From: a virus
Length of the DNA stretch: 24,095 nucleotides
IMG/VR virus record: IMGVR_UViG_3300036832_000257
Location: 1 to 24,095 of that record
Direction: 5' to 3' (one strand)
Each line of letters begins with the position of its first letter. Positions within the stretch are counted from its first letter, which is position 1. The position numbers were made by a program, and so were the translations under genes. The notes below the pieces were generated by a model. That model searched no databases and had not been told where the DNA came from. It saw nothing but the letters and a program-made list of their open reading frames with translations. Positions 6,636 to 23,921 of this stretch are shown here, piece by piece.

Positions 6636-8843
6636 ATGGCCGGACCGACCATCCTGGTAACGATTGCGGGCACCGTCGCCGGGCTCGAGACCGCAGTCGC
6701 CAAGGTCACCTCAGGCGTCCAGTCCAGCGTCGGCAAGATTCACGACGCCTTCGGCGGGCTGCTCTCGACCCTCAACGCCACCGGGGTTCTCGGTCCCTTC
6801 GGGGCAGCCCTCGACGGCGTCGATCGAGGGTTGGCTGCCATCGCCGAACACGGCAAAGGCCTCAGCACCGTCGGCCTGGCCGTGGGTGGAGCAGTGGCCG
6901 GGATCGGGGCCGGGCTGCAATCTCTCGGCTCCAAGGAGCAGGCCTCCAAGCAGCAACTGCAAGCCGCCATTGAGGCCACGGGCAAGAGCTGGGACGACTA
7001 CAGCGACCAGATCGATGGAGCCATCAAGAAGCAGGAGCACTTCGGCAACTCCTCGGCCGACACCCAGCGAGCTCTCCAGATCCTGACCCAGGCCACGGGC
7101 GACCCGGCCAAAGCCCTCGAGTACCTGGGCACGGCCTCCGACCTGGCCGCGGCCAAGCACGAATCGCTGGATGCCGCCGCCTCCCAGTTGGGCAAGACCT
7201 ACAACGGGGCGACCCGAATGCTCAAGGAGTTCGGCCTGGAGGCTGCTCCCAAGGCAGCGTCGGCCAGCAAGGAGCTCGAAGCAGCCACCAAAGGGGTCAC
7301 CACCGCGGCCGACGCCGCCACCAAGGCTCACCAGCACCTCCAAGATGTCGAAGATTCCCTCAAGGGCAAGACGACTCTCACCGCCGCCGAACAGGTCAAA
7401 TTGCGGGATGCCCAACACGGGGTCGTTGACGCCGACGCCAAGGCCCAAGCCGCCCACGAGAAGCTCATCATCGCTCAGAAGAACTCCAAGGACGCCGCCC
7501 AGGGCCAGACCGACACCATGCAGGCCCTCAGCGACAAGCTCAAGGGCCAGGCCTCAGCCGCCGCCGACACCTTCGGAGGGCGACTCAATGCCCTGAAAGC
7601 CAAGATCGAGGACTCCACCGCTCAATTCGGGCAGAAGTACGGGCCAGCCATCACAGGCGTGGGCAGCGCCCTGGCCGGGGTATCGGCCACCCTCAAGATC
7701 ATGGAAGCCCTCCACGCCGCCGAAGCCGCTGGTTGGCTGGCCGACGCCGTCGCCGCTGGTGTCGCCGCCGTGGCCGAGAACCTCGCCCTCCTAGGCATCC
7801 CGATCCTCATCGCTGCCGTGGTGGCGGGAATCGTCTGGATGGTGACCCACTGGAACAAGGTCAAGGACGCCATCATGAACGTGTGGAACTGGATCAAGAA
7901 CAACTGGCCATTGCTCCTGCCAATCCTCCTGGGTCCGATCGGCATCGTGGTCGCCCTCGTCATCAAGAACTTCGCAACCATCAAGCAAGTCATCAAGGAC
8001 GTAATCGACTGGCTCTCGGGGGCCTGGAACGACATCTACGCTGCCCTCGAGCCCGTCGTGGCCGAGATCGTCGGCGTCTTTGAGTTCTTGGGCAAGACCC
8101 TCGCTGCCATCGGGTATGTCCTGTCCATTCCCTTTATCATTGCCTGGCAATTGATCTACTGGGGAGCGCAACAGGTAGCGAACCTCATCGTGACTGCCTG
8201 GAACTGGCTCATGGGAGTCCTCAAGGCCGTGGCCAACGCCCTGGCTGGACCGTTCCAAGCCGCCTTCAACGCCATACGAGCTGCGGCCGACGCTGTCATC
8301 AATTGGCTCTATGGCGTCTGGAACGGAATCATCAACTTCCTCAGCGGAGTAGCAGGGACCATCGGCCGGGTGCTGTCCGGTCCCTGGCATACCGCCAGCG
8401 ATGCCGCAGGCACAACCTCCGACACCATCAAGCGCATCTGGAACGAGCTCATCGGCTTCTTCGGTGGAGTGATCAATCAGTTGGGTCGCATGTTTGGCGG
8501 CATGTGGAACGGCATCACCGAGGCCTTCCGAGCCGCCATCAACGCCCTCATCGACATCTGGAACAGCCTCCACTTCCCCGGTATCGACATCGGCCCGGTC
8601 CACGTCGCCGGGGTGGGCGCACCTCACATCAACCACCTGGCCTCTGGAGGGATCGTCAACGTGCCCACCCTGGCCCTCATCGGTGAAGCCGGACCGGAGG
8701 CCGTCGTACCCCTCAACAAGGCCAACGGCTTCGGCCGCAGTGGTCCGGCTGTGGTCGTCCAGAACGCTCACTTCAACACCGAGCTGGACATTGAGGCCTT
8801 CATGCGCCGCGCCGCCTGGGTGGCACAGACTCAGAGGATTTGA
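6636..8843 (+). CDS. Tape measure protein
   Basis: At 735 residues this is the longest gene in the window. It sets tail length and is ejected with DNA. The N-terminal part is Ala-rich and helical, with a charged coiled coil around residues 200-310. Hydrophobic segments lie at about 382-403 (LLGIPILIAAVVAGIVWMV) and 424-443 (PLLLPILLGPIGIVVALVI), with others around 490-520. Trp-rich amphipathic repeats of the AWNxxxxxLxx type fill residues 450-660. The C-terminus has LASGGIVNVPTLALIGEAG then PEAVVPLNK, a very common tape measure ending. The tail length that 735 residues would give is roughly 110 nm by the usual 0.15 nm per residue rule. TGA TCG TGA tandem in-frame stops lead into palindrome copy 4. 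Confidence 0.93.
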   Translation: MAGPTILVTIAGTVAGLETAVAKVTSGVQSSVGKIHDAFGGLLSTLNATGVLGPFGAALDGVDRGLAAIAEHGKGLSTVGLAVGGAVAGIGAGLQSLGSKEQASKQQLQAAIEATGKSWDDYSDQIDGAIKKQEHFGNSSADTQRALQILTQATGDPAKALEYLGTASDLAAAKHESLDAAASQLGKTYNGATRMLKEFGLEAAPKAASASKELEAATKGVTTAADAATKAHQHLQDVEDSLKGKTTLTAAEQVKLRDAQHGVVDADAKAQAAHEKLIIAQKNSKDAAQGQTDTMQALSDKLKGQASAAADTFGGRLNALKAKIEDSTAQFGQKYGPAITGVGSALAGVSATLKIMEALHAAEAAGWLADAVAAGVAAVAENLALLGIPILIAAVVAGIVWMVTHWNKVKDAIMNVWNWIKNNWPLLLPILLGPIGIVVALVIKNFATIKQVIKDVIDWLSGAWNDIYAALEPVVAEIVGVFEFLGKTLAAIGYVLSIPFIIAWQLIYWGAQQVANLIVTAWNWLMGVLKAVANALAGPFQAAFNAIRAAADAVINWLYGVWNGIINFLSGVAGTIGRVLSGPWHTASDAAGTTSDTIKRIWNELIGFFGGVINQLGRMFGGMWNGITEAFRAAINALIDIWNSLHFPGIDIGPVHVAGVGAPHINHLASGGIVNVPTLALIGEAGPEAVVPLNKANGFGRSGPAVVVQNAHFNTELDIEAFMRRAAWVAQTQRI

Positions 8844-17579: not shown

Positions 17580-17814
17580 TCCCGAACAGCGCAAGCTCTA
17601 CTACGTCCGCACCCCTCACGGCATGCGCTGGGAGGGCGAGCCCAAACCGGGGCAGGCTCGATCCTTGATCATTCACAACTGCGACCCCGACACCTACAAG
17701 CAAACCCTCAAGGCCATAGCCGAACAGGGCATGTTCACCACCAACCGAGCGACACGCCGCAAGTCTCAGCGTGTCGGGGACAAGGCTCGCCGCAAGAAAG
17801 CTAGGGAACAATGA
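17572..17814 (+). CDS. Small basic protein (80 aa)
   Basis: This 80-residue protein overlaps both neighbours (8 bases upstream, ATGA downstream). The N-terminal half (KLYYVRTPHGMRWEGEPKPG) looks like a small beta hairpin module. The C-terminus is strongly basic (NRATRRKSQRVGDKARRKKARE), which suggests DNA or RNA contact. Its position just before the nuclease and SSB-like genes hints at a replication or recombination accessory role, but this is inference. Confidence 0.65.
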   Translation: MNDPEQRKLYYVRTPHGMRWEGEPKPGQARSLIIHNCDPDTYKQTLKAIAEQGMFTTNRATRRKSQRVGDKARRKKAREQ

Positions 17815-19202
17815 CCAAATCCATCCCCGTCAACAACCTGAGCGATCCGACCCGCCGTGACCAATGGGGTCGCTATCTGGTCGTCCCACCCATTGGCGGC
17901 AAGCCCATCGGCTACACACGGGTCACCACCGTGGCCAAGGTCCTCGACCCCGGTGGAGGCCTCATCCCCTGGAAGGCGACCATGACAGCGTGCGGGATGA
18001 TCCTGCGCCGGGGCCTGCGCTCCCAGTGGGAAAGCCTCATCGCCCAGTACGACGATCCCTGGTACGCCAGCGAGGCCACCAAGGAGGCCTGCAAGGCTCT
18101 GGTGGAGGAGTGCGCAGCGGTGGGCGGGGCCAACGACCGGGCCGAGATGGGCACCAGCCTCCATGACATCACGGCCATGGTCGATCGGGGCCGCATGCCG
18201 CAACACCTGACCCCGGAGACCGAGGCCGACATCGCCGCCTACGTCGAAGGCCTCCAAGCGGCCGGGATCAGCTTCGACCCGAGCCTCATCGAAGTGACCG
18301 TGGTCCTCGACGAGTGGCAGACCGCAGGCAAGTTCGACCGGGTGGCCCATGTCCCCGGCTTCGAGCTGCCCCTGGTAGCAGACCTCAAGACCGGGGCCAA
18401 TCTGGACTACTCCTGGCAGAGCTTCGCCGTCCAGTTGGCGGGCTACAGCCGGGGCAACGCCATCTACGAACAGGGACCAGCCCTCGACGGCACGGCTGAC
18501 AAACGCCACCCGATGATCCCCGTCGACCAGAACAACGGCCTCATCATGTGGCTCAACGCCGGGACCGGAACCCTCGAGCTCTATCTGGTCGACCTCGAGC
18601 GGGGGTGGCACGCCTTCAAGCAGTCCATGTGGACTCGAGGGTGGCGCAAGGAGGTGGTCAGCCAGCCCTACGGCAACGCTCAGCTCAAGCTGCCGACCGC
18701 CACCGAGCCCGATAGCCTCGTTCCCGTGCTGCAAGCCTCCATCGACGCCATCGAGGCAGCCAAGCCCAAGCGCGGTCGACCCAGGAAGACACCGAGCCCT
18801 CCAGCCGCCATCGAAGCAGCAGCCACCGAAGCGCCCAAAATGACCAAACCCGCCATAGTCCCCGAACCGGTGATAGTTGACTATCAAGCGGGGGAGCACT
18901 ATATCGACAAGGTGCGAGAATGGCTGCAAGACCGCATCAACCTCATCGGTGCCCACGACACCGCCAGGGCCGACCTGATCCGGTCGTGGCCTCCAGACAT
19001 GCCGACGTTGATGGGCTCGACCGCTCACACGCCGGACCAGCTCGCCGCCATCGAGAAGCTCCTCGTTGGCGTCGAGGCGAGGGCTCAACTCCCCTTCGGG
19101 GAACCCAAGCCCGAGCCGACAAACGAACAAATGGGGCGATTGCTCCAAATGTTCCCTCAATCAACCCTGATCACCAACAACGACAAGGAGCATCCAGCAT
19201 GA
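17811..19202 (+). CDS. PD-(D/E)XK exonuclease, RecB/Cas4-like
   Basis: This 463-residue protein has a nuclease core with the family motifs in order: LIEVTVVLDEW (~160-168), AGKFDRV (D176), LVADLKTG (D191, K193) and WQSFAVQLAGY (Q~208), matching motifs II, III and QxxxY of RecB/Cas4-like nucleases. The N-terminus GYTRVTTVAKVLDPGGGLIPW is typical of actinophage Cas4-like exonucleases. No four-cysteine iron-sulfur cluster is seen, so Cas4 proper is unlikely. Palindrome copy 8 lies in the coding sequence (residues 354-359, VIVDYQ) in a Pro/Ala-rich linker before a helical C-terminal domain. It likely processes DNA ends in recombination with the adjacent SSB-like protein. Confidence 0.85.
   Translation: MTKSIPVNNLSDPTRRDQWGRYLVVPPIGGKPIGYTRVTTVAKVLDPGGGLIPWKATMTACGMILRRGLRSQWESLIAQYDDPWYASEATKEACKALVEECAAVGGANDRAEMGTSLHDITAMVDRGRMPQHLTPETEADIAAYVEGLQAAGISFDPSLIEVTVVLDEWQTAGKFDRVAHVPGFELPLVADLKTGANLDYSWQSFAVQLAGYSRGNAIYEQGPALDGTADKRHPMIPVDQNNGLIMWLNAGTGTLELYLVDLERGWHAFKQSMWTRGWRKEVVSQPYGNAQLKLPTATEPDSLVPVLQASIDAIEAAKPKRGRPRKTPSPPAAIEAAATEAPKMTKPAIVPEPVIVDYQAGEHYIDKVREWLQDRINLIGAHDTARADLIRSWPPDMPTLMGSTAHTPDQLAAIEKLLVGVEARAQLPFGEPKPEPTNEQMGRLLQMFPQSTLITNNDKEHPA
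18871..18886. promoter_or_regulatory. 16-bp palindrome, copy 8 (TTGA core), inside exonuclease gene
   Basis: TGATAGTTGACTATCA is read in the frame as VIVDYQ, avoiding its own stop codons. It sits in the linker between nuclease and C-terminal domains. Confidence 0.72.
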
Positions 19203-19648
19203 CCGAATCCATCCCTCTCGGAGACCTCGAGTCCTCCCCGTCCGCCAAGTTCACCGACCTGGGCGACACCCACTCCGGCATCATCACGGCCATGAACGAA
19301 CGCCAGCAGACCGACCTCAACGGACGCCTCCTGGCCTTCGACGACGGGACCCCTCGTATGCAGTGGGTCATCTCTCTGCGTAAGGCTGACGGCGACACCG
19401 TGGCCATCTACGCCAAGGGCGGGAAGTTCAAGCCCGCCAAGGGCTCAGGCGAGAGCATGCTGAGCGCCATCGGGGCAGCAGTGAGGGCTGCCGGGGCGAC
19501 CAGCGTCGACGTGGGCGGCACCTTGGCCGTAGCCTACACCGGGGAATCGGAGGCTCAGCCCGGGAGGTCTCCGGCCAAGCTCTACACCGCCCAGTACAAG
19601 GCTCCCAACGCCACCGTGCCGGTGGACCTGTTCGCTTCACCTTCGTAG
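19199..19648 (+). CDS. Candidate single-stranded DNA-binding / OB-fold protein
   Basis: The start is ATG 19199 in the ATGA overlap; upstream in-frame sequence overlaps the nuclease gene. The 149-residue product reads KFTDLGDTHSGIITAMNERQ, MQWVISLRKADGDTVAIYAKG and SVDVGGTLAVAYTGESE, an alternating-strand pattern of the OB-fold type. Proteins of this look sit next to primase-helicase genes in actinophages and are usually called SSB or DNA-binding. Function is inferred from fold pattern and position between nuclease and replicase. It is followed by a strong terminator. Confidence 0.6.
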   Translation: MTESIPLGDLESSPSAKFTDLGDTHSGIITAMNERQQTDLNGRLLAFDDGTPRMQWVISLRKADGDTVAIYAKGGKFKPAKGSGESMLSAIGAAVRAAGATSVDVGGTLAVAYTGESEAQPGRSPAKLYTAQYKAPNATVPVDLFASPS

Positions 19649-19740: not shown

Positions 19741-21852
19741 TTGGACAACCCTCAACATACCCCACAGACCAAGACCGCAGCCGCCGCCTACTTCGTGGCA
19801 GGATGGCACCCGCTCGAGCTCCCAGCGGGAGCCAAGGCTCCACCCCCCGACGGCCGCACCGGCTACGAGGGTTCCGACATGACCAGAGAGCAGATCGAAG
19901 CCTCCGACTGGGGCGGCAACATCGGCCTGAGGGTTCCCCCCGATGTCATCGGCCTGGATGTCGACGCCTACAAGGGAGGGCTCGACACCCTGAACGCCCT
20001 CATCAACCAACTCGGCCCCCTGCCCTCAACCCGCATCTCCCACTCCGGCCGCAACGACGGCAGCGGGATCAGGTTCTACCGGGTGCCAATCCTCACCTGG
20101 GTCACCAGCCTGCCCGGTATCGAGATCATCCAGAGGGTTCACCGCTATGCCGCCGTATGGCCCTCCATGCACCCTGACGGGCGGCAGTACGGGTGGTGGG
20201 ACCAGGCTGAGGCTGGACCCCTGGAGGCCTCCGAAGTGCCGCTGGTGGAGGACCTGCCCGAGATGCCCTGGAGCTGGATCGGGGAACTCTCCCGAGCCAG
20301 CCAGGCCGACACCTCCAGCCGGTCGACGGCAGCCGACCGCATCGGGACCATGGCCTTCATCACCACTCACGACAGCGCTGAGGCCTCCAGCTACCTGTCC
20401 ACCATCCTCGGCCACTTCGTCGACCGCCACCAGCAGGGCTACTCGAGGCACGACACCATGCAGCACTGCCTCATATGGGCCATGGAGATGGCCCGGGCCA
20501 TGGTCATCGCCGCCCAGCCCGCCATCGACCAGTTGGGCCAGGAATGGGTAGCAGCCCTCCAGGGCGACCCCCGCCGCCAGGCCCTCCACGACGACCGCCG
20601 TGTCACCGAGTTCGAGGCCATGCTCCGACATGCCGTGGGCAAGGCCACGGCCAAGCCGCAAGCCGTGATCGACAAGCTCCATGACGACTATGCCGGGATC
20701 AAGATGAACCCCTCCAGCCCCCCAGTTGATAGTCAACTATCAGTCGATGATGCGCTCTCCTGGCTCACCCCGCTAAGCACTCAAAACACCGGACTGCGGA
20801 TCACGGCGGACCTCGGGCTCATGACCGACGGCCGTGGACTCCTCCACCTGGCTCGTTTCAACCTCCTGCACGGCGACTCGGGAGCGGGCAAATCCTTCAT
20901 GGAGGCCTTCATGGTGGCCGAGTGCATCAAGACACAAAGACGGGTGGCGGTATTCGACCTGGAAGACGGCCCGGAAGTATTGGGCCAACGCCTCATGCAG
21001 CTCGGCATCCCCTGGCCCCAACAGGAGGAATGGCTGCTGTTCTTTCATCCCGACGAAGCCACCACCCCAGCCCTCATGCGTGCCGTGGTCGAGCTCCTGA
21101 TCGAGCGCGATGTTTGCCATGCTTTCATCGACTCCATGGGTGAGGCCTTCGGCGTGGATGGGGTCGACGAGAACTCCGACTTTGAGGTCACGGCCTGGAT
21201 CACCCGGGTCGTGAGACCTCTGTGCAACGCCGGGATCGGGGTGACATCGCTCGATCACGTCACCAAGGCCGGGGACAACCTGCTCTACCCCTCAGGGTCC
21301 AAGCGCAAGCGGGCGGCGGTGACGGGGACCAACTTCCTCATGTACGCCACCGAGCCTTACTCGCTCGAAGGCGGCGGGCGAGCAACCCTCCGCTGCGCCA
21401 AGGATCGACACGGCCAGTACCGCCGAGGCGACGACGTGGCCGAGCTGACCATGCAACCCCTCGATCCCATATTCGGGCAAACCGCCATGGAGCTCGCCCC
21501 GGTCGTTTCGATCCCTCCACCGTCGAGACCAGACCTCTTGATCATCGCCGTGAACACCTGCCAGAAGTTCCCGGGGCAAACCCTCACCAAGACCCAGGTC
21601 ATCGCGGATGTGCGGACCACGGCCGGGACAACCCTCAAGTTTGCCGACAAGGCCATGGGCGAAGCCCTCGAGGCGGCTGCTCTCCGAGGCTTCCTGACCC
21701 CCGGCAAGGGCTACAACGGACACGACGGATACGCCTTCGCCCGACCGATTCCTCCTAACTCACCTGGGTTAATGACCCCTCCAGCCCAAATGCCATCCAG
21801 CGACCATCCAGCGGAATCATCCAGCGTCACCCAGCGAGAGGACGAAGTGTAA
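19741..21852 (+). CDS. Bifunctional PrimPol primase-polymerase / AAA+ helicase
   Basis: This 703-residue protein is the main replication enzyme seen. The N-terminal prim-pol domain (about residues 10-190) has the active-site acidic pair in IGLDVDAYKGG (D73, D75), SGRNDGSGIRFYRV (102-115) and RVHRYAAVWPSMHPDG (H134). A linker with palindrome copy 9 leads to a RepA/RecA-type helicase domain with Walker A GDSGAGKS (~378-385) and Walker B HAFIDS (~460-465). A C-terminal winged-helix-like part contains FPGQTLTKTQV. Start TTG 19741 is the only usable start (an in-frame stop lies at 19729-19731) and has no clear Shine-Dalgarno. No separate DNA polymerase is seen in the window. Confidence 0.9.
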   Translation: MDNPQHTPQTKTAAAAYFVAGWHPLELPAGAKAPPPDGRTGYEGSDMTREQIEASDWGGNIGLRVPPDVIGLDVDAYKGGLDTLNALINQLGPLPSTRISHSGRNDGSGIRFYRVPILTWVTSLPGIEIIQRVHRYAAVWPSMHPDGRQYGWWDQAEAGPLEASEVPLVEDLPEMPWSWIGELSRASQADTSSRSTAADRIGTMAFITTHDSAEASSYLSTILGHFVDRHQQGYSRHDTMQHCLIWAMEMARAMVIAAQPAIDQLGQEWVAALQGDPRRQALHDDRRVTEFEAMLRHAVGKATAKPQAVIDKLHDDYAGIKMNPSSPPVDSQLSVDDALSWLTPLSTQNTGLRITADLGLMTDGRGLLHLARFNLLHGDSGAGKSFMEAFMVAECIKTQRRVAVFDLEDGPEVLGQRLMQLGIPWPQQEEWLLFFHPDEATTPALMRAVVELLIERDVCHAFIDSMGEAFGVDGVDENSDFEVTAWITRVVRPLCNAGIGVTSLDHVTKAGDNLLYPSGSKRKRAAVTGTNFLMYATEPYSLEGGGRATLRCAKDRHGQYRRGDDVAELTMQPLDPIFGQTAMELAPVVSIPPPSRPDLLIIAVNTCQKFPGQTLTKTQVIADVRTTAGTTLKFADKAMGEALEAAALRGFLTPGKGYNGHDGYAFARPIPPNSPGLMTPPAQMPSSDHPAESSSVTQREDEV
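20727..20742. promoter_or_regulatory. 16-bp palindrome, copy 9 (TCAA core), inside PrimPol-helicase gene
   Basis: TGATAGTCAACTATCA is read in frame as VDSQLS, in the Ser/Pro-rich linker (SSPPVDSQLSVDD) between primase and helicase domains. Confidence 0.72.
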
Positions 21853-21978
21853 AAGTGCTGGTCAGAAAATCATCCAGCGCATCCAGCGCATCCAGCGCGC
21901 ACCCCGCCAATCATCCAGCGCATCCAGCGGGGGCCTATAGGGCCCCGCACGCTGGATGGCTGAGCCGCTGGCTGGATG
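21794..21978. repeat. Iteron array (CATCCAGCG) with terminal hairpin: candidate replication origin
   Basis: Eight exact direct copies of CATCCAGCG start at 21794, 21805, 21818, 21871, 21880, 21889, 21912 and 21921, with a one-mismatch copy at 21828. Several are in strict 9-base tandem. An exact inverted copy lies at 21950-21958 and a one-mismatch inverted copy at 21970-21978. The first four lie in the last codons of the PrimPol-helicase gene, the rest in the following gap. Iterons beside an initiator/helicase gene are the classical layout of a replication origin. Confidence 0.75.
21921..21958. other. Large hairpin at end of iteron array
   Basis: The last forward iteron (21921-21929) and the inverted copy (21950-21958) form a 9-bp outer stem. 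GGGGCC (21930-21935) and GGCCCC (21941-21946) form a 6-bp inner stem around loop TATAG. Only a three-base bulge (GCA, 21947-21949) interrupts it. The total is 15 bp over 38 bases. Confidence 0.7.
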
Positions 21979-22036
21979 AGCATGAGGCCTCAAAATCAAC
22001 TAAGCTGGCTAAGGCCAATAAATCAAGGGAGGACCA

Positions 22037-22702
22037 GTGCTCGCTGCCATTCGGAACGGACGCCTCACCGCTGCCTGGCAGATCGGTGACGACGACCCTC
22101 ACGGCACCTGCCCGCATTGCCTGGCCCCGGTCTTCCTCAAGCGGGGGATCGAGGTCGTGTGGCACTTCGCCCACTACGCCAACAGCACCTGCCCCTGGTC
22201 AGAGGAGTCCGACGAGCACGCCGGGGCCAAGATGACCCTGGCCCGGTTGTTCACCGATGAGGGCTACCGGGTCGAGCCTGAGGTCTCGGTGGGCTCGAGG
22301 AAGGTTGACCTGAGGGTCGAAGGCGGGACGCGCTGGTGCGCCGTCGAAGTCCAGCGCTCCAACATCCAGACCTCCACCATGTTCGAGCGGGAGCGGGCTC
22401 ATGCCGCCCATGGAGCCCTGGCCACCGTGTGGGTGTGGGTTGACCGCTCCGAGATTGGGCCGGACATGCGCTTCTGCTGGTATCGGGATTGGGTCAGCCT
22501 CAACCTGCTCGACCGGGGCAAGCCCGCCCTCGCCCTATTCCGCCATAGCGGCGACGGCCAGGTGGCGGCTTCCGAGCAAGTGGCCGCGACCCCTCAACTG
22601 GTCGTCTGCCGAGCTCGTGGCGGGCGCCCGGGCGTGCGCTTCGGCGTGGAGCTGGAGCGTTCTTCGAGCGCTGCCTGGCCGATCCCGCTGGATCAGTTCT
22701 GA
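22037..22702 (+). CDS. CoiA-like nuclease
   Basis: It starts at GTG 22037 with AAGGGAGGA just upstream. The 221-residue protein has CPHC (25-28) and HFAHYANSTC (43-52), the zinc-binding arrangement and HFAH motif of competence protein CoiA. A nuclease core follows: VEPEVSVGSRKVDLRV (E80/E82, D91) and WCAVEVQRS (E104, Q106), fitting a PD-(D/E)XK-type active site. In bacteria CoiA works in natural transformation; phage versions probably process recombination or replication DNA. Its place directly downstream of the iteron array and PrimPol-helicase supports a DNA-replication role here. The stop is coupled to the next gene by TGATG. Confidence 0.82.
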   Translation: MLAAIRNGRLTAAWQIGDDDPHGTCPHCLAPVFLKRGIEVVWHFAHYANSTCPWSEESDEHAGAKMTLARLFTDEGYRVEPEVSVGSRKVDLRVEGGTRWCAVEVQRSNIQTSTMFERERAHAAHGALATVWVWVDRSEIGPDMRFCWYRDWVSLNLLDRGKPALALFRHSGDGQVAASEQVAATPQLVVCRARGGRPGVRFGVELERSSSAAWPIPLDQF

Positions 22703-22893
22703 TGGGCAAGCGAAGCGGTGGCGACGAACCCTCCGTGTTCGACCCGCTGACCATCGCCCGGCAATGGGCCGTGGAGGCCTCCAGACCCGGCCGTCACAAG
22801 AACGCTCAGGTCGCCATGGCCTGGGCTCTCATCGCCATAGCCGAGCAGGTCCGAACCCTCATCGAAGTCACCGCTCCGCCCGATGACCACTGA
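22702..22893 (+). CDS. Hypothetical small helical protein (63 aa)
   Basis: This 63-residue protein starts at ATG 22702, sharing a base with the previous stop. It contains PLTIARQWAVEASRPGRHKN then a hydrophobic helix VAMAWALIAIAEQVRTLIEV, amphipathic rather than clearly transmembrane. No family is recognised. It overlaps the next gene by 11 bases. Confidence 0.66.
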   Translation: MGKRSGGDEPSVFDPLTIARQWAVEASRPGRHKNAQVAMAWALIAIAEQVRTLIEVTAPPDDH

Positions 22894-23344
22894 GCCCTCG
22901 ATCGAGGCATACTGGGTCGAGGCGAGCAGACTGGGCAGGCTGAGCGGTCACGTCGTGTGTCGTTGCCCCGACTGCGGTGAGCGCTGCCTGATGAGCTATC
23001 GCCCGCCGAGCCAGCCCTGGCCCCGCTGCCGGGTCTGCCTGCCGCCCTCGATCGAGATTCCCGTCCGATGGGGCCAGCCCCGCCAGGTCGTGAGGGCTCC
23101 AGCCGCTCGAGTCGTCCCGGTGAGCGATCCCGCTGCTGTCGTCCACAAGCGACCCGGGCAGCCCAGGACGGCTCGAGCCCTCAAGGCCGATGGCTGCGTG
23201 GTGGTGCGCTCAGCCGCCTCCGTGCCGCCAGGAGGGCCGGAAACCCCTCCGGGTGGGTTCCCGGAGGGCTCCGGCCCTCCAGCGGGCTCTACGGGCCTTG
23301 GAGGGATTACACGTCGCATCATCAAAACCAACGGCCCACCATGA
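22883..23344 (+). CDS. Zinc-ribbon protein with low-complexity tail (153 aa)
   Basis: ATG 22883 lies within the previous gene's 3' end. Residues ~24-52 hold CRCPDCGERC and a second CRVC, a four-cysteine zinc ribbon (C-x2-C ... C-x2-C). The rest is basic and Pro/Gly-rich. Residues ~117-133 are encoded within a very stable nested hairpin (23231-23280), which makes the true end of the coding function uncertain: the C-terminal third may be constrained by RNA structure rather than protein. Possibly a DNA-binding accessory; no family is recognised. Confidence 0.6.
   Translation: MTTEPSIEAYWVEASRLGRLSGHVVCRCPDCGERCLMSYRPPSQPWPRCRVCLPPSIEIPVRWGQPRQVVRAPAARVVPVSDPAAVVHKRPGQPRTARALKADGCVVVRSAASVPPGGPETPPGGFPEGSGPPAGSTGLGGITRRIIKTNGPP
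23231..23280 (+). terminator. Nested double-stem hairpin (19 bp)
   Basis: The outer stem GGAGGGCCGG (23231-23240) / CCGGCCCTCC (23271-23280) and the inner stem CCCTCCGGG (23245-23253) / CCCGGAGGG (23260-23268) are both perfect, with loop TGGGTT and a small internal loop. It probably terminates or strongly pauses the early operon, or marks a structured RNA. It lies inside the annotated coding frame. Confidence 0.6.
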
Positions 23345-23382
23345 GGGACGCTACCAAGTGGTAGAGGCCGAGCGCTTGCTTC

Positions 23383-23400
23383 GCGAAACATATGTTTCGC
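23383..23400. repeat. 18-bp perfect palindrome
   Basis: GCGAAACATATGTTTCGC has no mismatch. It is AT-rich at the centre and lies between convergent genes. Possible roles are an operator for a dimeric protein, a terminator stem or a recombination site. Confidence 0.65.
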
Positions 23401-23435
23401 CTACCCTCATGATAGACCGATGATCATTGGATCAT

Positions 23436-23451
23436 TGATAGTTGACTATCC
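23436..23451. promoter_or_regulatory. 16-bp palindrome, copy 10 (TTGA core, last base differs)
   Basis: TGATAGTTGACTATCC matches 15 of 16 bases of the other copies. It lies next to the dyad ATGATC...GATCAT and is the only copy not at a rightward gene boundary or inside a gene. Confidence 0.65.
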
Positions 23452-23497
23452 CGACCGCGGGTGCGGCCTGGGGATATCCCTGGGGACAACCTGTGGA

Positions 23498-23887
23498 TTA
23501 CCGCCAGGGGCGAGCTCCCTGTTCGTGGAACAGATGGGCGGCGGCAGCGATGTTGCATGAGGGGTTGGCCCACTGCCTCCAAGAGCACCCGACAGCGGCA
23601 AACTGGCGGGCATGCAACGGAACCATCATCTGGAAAATCCCTCGAGCCTGGGACCGGCGATTTGCGGCATTGGCCTGGCAGCGAGATTCCCGCCAGGCGA
23701 TGCCCACCGCCCATGCGGCATTGCGGCCAAAGTCGCGCTGGATGATACGGACAATGGCAGCCGGGCAACCGCTCGAGCCCGTGGCTGCCGAAGCCGTCAC
23801 CGCCGATCCCGTGAGGACTCCAGCCATGATGATCAGAGCCACGCCGATATGCCTCATATACTTTGTGGTGTTCCTGATTGTTCTCAT
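23498..23887 (-). CDS. Secreted lytic transglycosylase (SLT/lysozyme-like)
   Basis: This is the only leftward gene recognised. It has a signal peptide (basic start, hydrophobic GVALIIMAGVLTGSAVTA, cleavage probably after ASA). The mature domain reads AAWAVGIAWRESRC (catalytic Glu in RES), NRRSQARGIFQMM and NIAAAAHLFHEQGARPW, the order seen in transglycosylase SLT domains, with three Cys. It should cleave the glycan of peptidoglycan outside the membrane. Start: ATG at 23887 is preferred because the longer ATG at 23902 lies upstream of the -10 box, and 23887 matches the predicted transcript start (leaderless). The ATG at 23857 is an alternative. With its own promoter and opposite strand it behaves like a moron or an independently expressed cell-wall gene. 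Confidence 0.75.
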   Translation of the reverse strand: MRTIRNTTKYMRHIGVALIIMAGVLTGSAVTASAATGSSGCPAAIVRIIQRDFGRNAAWAVGIAWRESRCQANAANRRSQARGIFQMMVPLHARQFAAVGCSWRQWANPSCNIAAAAHLFHEQGARPWR

Positions 23888-23892
23888 GCCAT

Positions 23893-23921
23893 ATAGTAGC
23901 ATGAGCCCTCTAAGCCGTCAA
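23893..23921 (-). promoter_or_regulatory. Leftward promoter of the transglycosylase gene
   Basis: On the minus strand the -35 is TTGACG (23921-23916), the spacer is 17 bases, and the -10 is TACTAT (23898-23893). The transcript start is predicted at about 23887, on the ATG. GCGCTCAAA lies one base upstream of the -35, as it does near the early promoter. Confidence 0.62.

Follow-up and report, generated by a model that had tools for sequence, protein, structure and literature searches.

An array of 9-bp iterons with an iteron-closed hairpin, located at and just behind the 3′ end of the PrimPol-helicase (replicase) gene of a tailed phage, is very probably the start of phage replication, as judged from its sequence and that of its relatives. 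The preferred reading, given a probability of roughly three in four, is that this element serves as a replication origin and that the replicase, the product of the adjacent gene, recognises it via the predicted winged helix at the C-terminus of that protein. The window is the whole stretch of DNA analysed, i.e. the complete IMG/VR record IMGVR_UViG_3300036832_000257 (24,095 bases); this record is a fragment. The window carries tailed-phage genes (portal, head, tape measure, tail, endolysin), and the gene order after the structural genes is RusA, exonuclease, phrog_1911 protein, PrimPol-helicase. No similarity of the window to deposited phages was found at the DNA level. The exonuclease–phrog_1911–PrimPol operon found upstream of the array is conserved across relatives, which are designated below by locus (L004, etc.).

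Table 1. Features of the replication region, in window positions
Feature	Positions	Strand	Remarks
Exonuclease gene, replication operon	17811-19202	+	phrog_466 (5e-65); kept upstream in relatives
phrog_1911 gene, replication operon	19199-19648	+	phrog_1911 (5e-26); kept upstream in relatives; start 19199 chosen by the analysts
Replicase gene, 703 aa	19741-21852	+	PrimPol domain, SF4 helicase domain, C-terminal winged helix (predicted)
Part encoding the predicted winged helix (residues 597-666)	21529-21738	+	Proposed iteron reader; AlphaFold, Foldseek
Iteron 1, CATCCAGCG	21794-21802	+	Inside CDS
Iteron 2, CATCCAGCG	21805-21813	+	Inside CDS
Iteron 3, CATCCAGCG	21818-21826	+	Inside CDS
Iteron 4, CACCCAGCG	21828-21836	+	One mismatch; inside CDS
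Iterons 5-7, CATCCAGCG	21871-21897	+	Strict 9-bp tandem (starts 21871, 21880, 21889)
Iterons 8-9, CATCCAGCG	21912-21929	+	Strict 9-bp tandem (starts 21912, 21921); iteron 9 is the hairpin left arm
Iteron-closed hairpin, 38 nt	21921-21958	.	Central CCTATAGG; -17 kcal/mol, z -6
Inverted iteron, exact	21950-21958	-	Hairpin right arm
Inverted iteron, CAGCCAGCG	21966-21974	-	One mismatch; overlaps CATCCAGCC
Inverted iteron, CATCCAGCC	21970-21978	-	One mismatch; overlaps CAGCCAGCG
Weakly AT-rich stretch next to the array	21981-22030	.	56% AT in a 62-66% GC genome; weak

Eight exact direct copies of CATCCAGCG, one CACCCAGCG and inverted copies are found at 21794-21978 (Table 1). The iterons are 9 bp in size, with spacings of 9-43, and the array extends from the final 20 or so codons of the replicase into the gap downstream. 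The earlier note had described eight exact and one near-exact direct 9-mers, some in strict tandem, with two inverted copies, running from the 3′ end of the replicase gene into the gap before the CoiA-like gene: positions and shuffles bear this out. Elsewhere in the 24 kb, exact CATCCAGCG occurs only twice (at 7165 and 23736). When one mismatch is allowed, the whole window holds 31 matches vs 11.8 expected, a number that no shuffle attains. The array has a 300-bp score of 11 copies (300 dinucleotide shuffles: mean 2.65, maximum 4); no other 300-bp window of the record exceeds 6. Of the copies, four fall within the gene and occupy three different reading frames, so that selection acts on the DNA and not on a peptide repeat.

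As far as the sequences of relatives tell, the array is a positionally conserved element. All loci were scanned by an identical rule: 9-mers with no more than one mismatch were counted on both strands in windows of 300 bp, and a locus was scored as positive if its highest-scoring window overall fell within -200 to +350 relative to the replicase stop. The densest repeat cluster is found at the 3′ end of the PrimPol-helicase gene in 49 of the 94 non-redundant relatives vs about 5.6 expected: 21/47 non-redundant clusters in the first set (expected 2.85, p=7e-14) and 28/47 clusters, plus 9 ties, in the test set (expected 2.79, p=1e-22). The test set is independent of the first one and consists of loci fetched after the hypothesis had been formed. 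At the sensitivity of the scan, the top-scoring array was not found at this place in about 40% of relatives. The earlier note, which had proposed a probable origin and named absence of the array from this place in relatives as evidence against it, is thus strongly supported by the comparison. When PrimPol and helicase are encoded by separate genes (L047, L055, L081, L075), the array begins 9-86 bases after the helicase gene, not after the PrimPol gene. The helicase half of the window replicase is akin to that of L019, L057, L134, L136 and others, and its PrimPol half is nearer to L011-L020; by this sequence comparison, PrimPol and helicase modules are exchanged among relatives, the array still being located behind the combined gene.

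The iteron word differs nearly everywhere (CGGGGACAG, GGTGAGTCC, ACCTCGTCC, GGGAACCGC, AAGGTAGGT, CTAGAGACG and others): nearly every phage has a private 9-mer. In the first relative found (L004, 44% identical), the corresponding gene is followed by boxes of GTCCAGTCGGACCA type, some direct and some inverted. In Gordonia phages TinyDot (L005) and Hibiscus (L008), ACCGTGGACAC and TGTCCACGC arrays flank an AT-rich block, which is clear by eye in these two phages and weak in the window. Some words are shared: GGGG(A)CAG in L011/L016/L128, GTCCAC in L005/L008, GTT.CTCCC/GCTCCTCCC-type in L123/L132. No relative carrying the iteron of the window was found by a search of IMG/VR for exact tandem CATCCAGCGCATCCAGCG; this tandem, found in 40 IMG/VR contigs, was rejected as a shared iteron, the dense cases (L167, L181) having spacings in multiples of 9 and looking like coding repeats.

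Several other arrangements were observed. Annotated hypothetical genes overlie the iteron arrays of TinyDot (gene 58, L005:5298-5648) and Hibiscus (gene 55, L008:6256-6528) and may not be real genes. Sixteen loci (L043, L045, L049, L056, L058, L059, L060, L065, L066, L073, L074, L076, L079, L083, L087, L088) harbour a single ORF of about 1550-1700 aa encoding, in this order, PrimPol, a D5-type helicase, a Pro/Ser/Gly-rich linker, a 3′-5′ exonuclease and a family A DNA polymerase (the last two checked with Pfam in L058). The linker contains, in frame, an array of ACCCGTCAC or ACCCTCCAC iterons (e.g. array 4549-4824 in L058:2055-6734), an arrangement resembling the lambda origin inside O. In L035 (8027-8354), a palindrome, GTGAGGCTCAC, is present 13 times, about 460-760 bases behind the PrimPol gene.

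The hairpin lies about 69-106 nt past the replicase stop codon. Its stem of 9+6 bp carries a 3-nt bulge (GCA) and ends in a 5-nt loop, CCTATAGG being at the tip; the energy was computed for folding as DNA. The 15-bp hairpin closed by a direct and an inverted iteron, as previously claimed, is real and 38 nt long, but its 15 bp are discontinuous. Strong hairpins are enriched about 4-fold at replicase 3′ ends in both data sets (per kb, 0.39 vs 0.10 elsewhere, p=3e-4, in the first set; 0.43 vs 0.09, p=3e-5, in the test set). The 61 kb of such 3′ ends contain the octamer CCTATAGG 5 times and 867 kb of other sequence just once, and the hairpin arms are themselves iterons in many relatives (L020, L022, L026, L095, L097, L123, L134, L158). 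GC hairpins with a TA apex were rejected as a general feature: their enrichment in the first set (p.008-.016) is absent from the test set, and they are put forward only as recurrent in some AAA_25-type relatives. In relatives with an AAA_25 helicase and a long C-terminal tail (L019, L096, L122, L136, L140, L146), the array or hairpin can be part of the coding sequence. It then lies after the winged helix and before a short C-terminal motif that is conserved and resembles TGEV(I/V)D.

A hairpin at this distance from a stop codon could belong, with the repeats, to a transcription terminator or another RNA element of the replication operon, and the RNA 21853-22036 does fold better than shuffles (z -3.2). 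However, the hairpin has no T-tract, so an ordinary terminator is unlikely; an intrinsic terminator was discarded, the GC hairpin lacking a following T-tract. No Rfam family was found above threshold (sub-threshold chance matches only), the array and hairpin lie within the coding sequence in L019 and L136, and repeats without hairpin would stay unexplained. In pRN1, the terminator hairpin is dispensable and another stem-loop is essential (PMC4234260). A terminator or other RNA element is considered very unlikely.

Short repeats in both orientations, adjoining a gene start and with their first copies overlapping the replicase 3′ end, could also be an operator or autoregulatory site through which the replicase or a repressor controls the replication operon or the downstream CoiA-like gene. 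Yet operators normally precede a conserved gene and do not follow it, no sigma70-type promoter was found in 21600-22200, and the array is conserved whereas the downstream gene is not; this explanation is highly improbable. Neither the CoiA-like gene nor any other conserved gene was found downstream of the array in relatives, and an operator of the CoiA-like gene was ruled out on this ground. The CoiA-like protein (22037-22702), encoded behind the putative origin, has CoiA_N and CoiA nuclease-like domains. Farther downstream, an AT-rich stretch (23380-23460) with palindrome TTCGCGAAACATATGTTTCGCC lies shortly after the gene at 22883-23344, and the minus-strand SLT-lysozyme gene (23498-23902) ends near it. 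Another palindrome, TTGATAGTCAACTATCAG, with variants GATAGTCGTCTATC, is found in the window (20728-20745, 23437-23452), in L004 (9485-9503) and in L020 (about +180 past the PrimPol stop). This palindrome, recurring in the window and two relatives, may be a conserved operator.

The PrimPol domain of the replicase covers residues 14-161 (Pfam PF09250, 1.7e-16) and its RecA-like helicase domain, AAA_25, residues ~366-512 (Pfam PF13481, 2.5e-08). Profile matches of the latter include RSF1010 RepA (1g8y, 8e-11), Twinkle, DnaB, RecA and KaiC; by these matches, the helicase belongs to the SF4/RecA-like class and not to SF3. For the C-terminus, a winged helix is predicted. An AlphaFold model of residues 597-666, built with homologous C-termini, has the order H-H-H-E-E (pLDDT 75, pTM 0.64), which is that of winged helices; many of its neighbours in Foldseek have this fold (Fur, histone H1, RTP, PadR; weak E-values, probability ~1). 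The full-length model is poor (pTM 0.38) and was used at domain level only: the same residues also form three helices and two strands, with low confidence, and RecA/KaiC folds dominate its fold search. Where the replicase has relatives in bacterial genomes, these belong nearly always to Actinomycetota.

Which protein reads the iterons was addressed by covariation (partial Mantel test of iteron-matrix similarity vs protein similarity, 47 arrays, permutation p). With PrimPol controlled for, iteron similarity correlates with how alike the last 160 residues are (rho 0.096, p=0.003), and it does so too with both PrimPol and helicase controlled for (p=0.007). Among the same 47 arrays, no correlation was found with PrimPol similarity (p=0.34), nor with the helicase core when the C-terminus is controlled for (p=0.36). 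The effect is small because most C-termini are unalignable. Binding of the iterons by the PrimPol-helicase itself is thus supported, in a specific but statistical way, by covariation of C-terminus and iteron and by the predicted winged helix.

SF4 helicases normally depend on a separate loader or initiator, and we know of none that also binds its own origin; a separate initiator could therefore exist. The array would then still be an origin, but its reader would be another protein that loads the helicase, either DnaA of the host or an unlinked initiator of the phage, an alternative regarded as unlikely. Its model is RSF1010, where RepC is the iteron reader and RepA does the unwinding (PMC4234260). 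A gene annotated as RepA-like replication initiator directly follows the PrimPol gene of Rhodococcus phage Jflix2, and an initiator could be encoded outside the record, which is a fragment; no separate RepC-like iteron-binding initiator gene was found among the window proteins scanned. Seventeen per cent of iterons vs 3% of shuffled ones match in 6 or more places the sequence TTGTCCACA, the actinobacterial DnaA box. Near the window array, however, no DnaA box was found within 2 mismatches. Moreover, the iterons of relatives diverge much too widely to be read by a host protein, their similarity follows the replicase C-terminus specifically, and no gene is conserved downstream of the array. The iteron core TGTCCAC of the L005, L008, L053, L055 and L105 arrays resembles the same box.

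Recognition by the adjacent replicase, the preferred reading, has counterparts in known systems. In SaPI Rep and SCCmec Cch2, a C-terminal domain binds iterons located just downstream of their own genes (PMC7581432). Several short iterons lie directly behind the helicase gene in the window likewise, and the primase is encoded in the same module; the DNA-binding domain has as its counterpart a winged helix that is only predicted, and the helicases are SF3/AAA+ (Rep, Cch2) instead of RecA-like SF4 (AAA_25, RepA-like). SaPI iterons flank an AT-rich block: such a block between iteron sets is clear in L005/L008, whereas the window has only 56% AT at 21981-22030. The archaeal plasmid pRN1 has its origin within the 166 bp that follow its PrimPol-helicase gene; this stretch, with its essential stem-loop, is needed (PMC4234260). 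Its ORF904 combines an N-terminal archaeo-eukaryotic PrimPol, a helicase and a C-terminal winged helix in one protein, in the same order as in the window, and a stem-loop lies shortly behind the replicase gene in both. The pRN1 stem-loop is larger (~100 nt), its helicase is SF3, and its origin is devoid of iterons, whereas those of the window close the hairpin. The alpha protein of satellite phage P4 also unites primase, helicase and a winged-helix origin-binding domain that reads repeats (PMC4234260). It shares with the window protein this one-protein architecture (the winged helix being predicted here), but its primase is of TOPRIM/bacterial type, unlike the window PrimPol. The location of the P4 origin and its second site, crr, differ from the window layout.

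RSF1010 (IncQ) resembles the window by its hexameric helicase RepA, matched by the window helicase among solved structures, by its AEP-type primase and by iterons at the origin; it differs by its three separate proteins RepA/RepB′/RepC, RepC being the iteron reader. Its oriV also has hairpins, and its iterons are of 20 bp. Classical iteron plasmid origins have iterons of 17-22 bp with helical spacing and DnaA boxes; the window differs by its 9-bp iterons, by spacings of 9-43 and by having no DnaA box within 2 mismatches near the array. Since the helicase is SF4, not SF3, and iterons are present unlike in pRN1, the element is not a strict member of the SaPI, P4 or pRN1 systems. The best explanation, by analogy, is that it would work like the origins of SaPI Rep, P4 alpha and pRN1 ORF904, but with an SF4 (RSF1010 RepA-like) helicase.

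Among actinophages, the origin is thought to lie in or beside the initiator gene in the RepA prophage replicons of Miko and Jeeves (PMC7157519); their RepA-like initiators (320-350 aa) have neither PrimPol nor helicase and serve prophage maintenance. In Miko and Rachaly, direct repeats located immediately downstream of repA are parS (PMC7157519), and the window array could likewise be a parS-like centromere, as in extrachromosomal cluster A mycobacteriophages. No ParA/ParB-like protein was found among the window proteins scanned (the record being a fragment), and in relatives the array is tied to the helicase gene; a centromere is barely credible.

If the array is an origin read by the replicase, the C-terminal winged helix of the PrimPol-helicase would bind CATCCAGCG iterons on either side of the dyad. 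The RecA-like (SF4) helicase domains would then form rings and open the duplex. Opening would be aided either by the iteron-closed hairpin, extruded as a cruciform, or by the short AT-rich segment 21981-22030, a possible unwinding element. The PrimPol domain would finally lay the first primers on the exposed strands; that the hairpin helps primase loading is a conjecture. Binding, melting, priming and actual initiation at the array are what we infer from these parts. GC skew, put forward earlier as a check, was dropped as support for an origin: in the window it does change at the array (21.9-22.0 kb, from -0.12 to about 0), but no consistent change was found at the arrays of 21 array-bearing relatives (p=0.47), and the outcome is neutral overall.

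To our knowledge, most actinobacteriophage origins are unmapped, and no description of iterons behind actinophage PrimPol genes was found in a search of openly available full-text literature. Chances are about even that a widespread class of actinobacterial phage replicons exists, in which PrimPol fused to an SF4 (RepA/DnaB-like) helicase would be its own origin-binding initiator and the C-terminal winged helix would co-evolve with the 9-bp iteron word proper to each phage and placed directly behind the gene; dozens of separate origin specificities would result. By a simple rule, the origin would lie directly behind the helicase of the PrimPol replicase; for about half of the loci sampled, this rule predicts where the origin lies and what its sequence is. 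A table matching iteron words with C-terminal domains could be tested. If the replicase reads its own iterons, it would be the first SF4 helicase known to us as its own origin-binding initiator, and the gene together with its array would offer actinobacterial vectors a compact replicon that is complete in itself.
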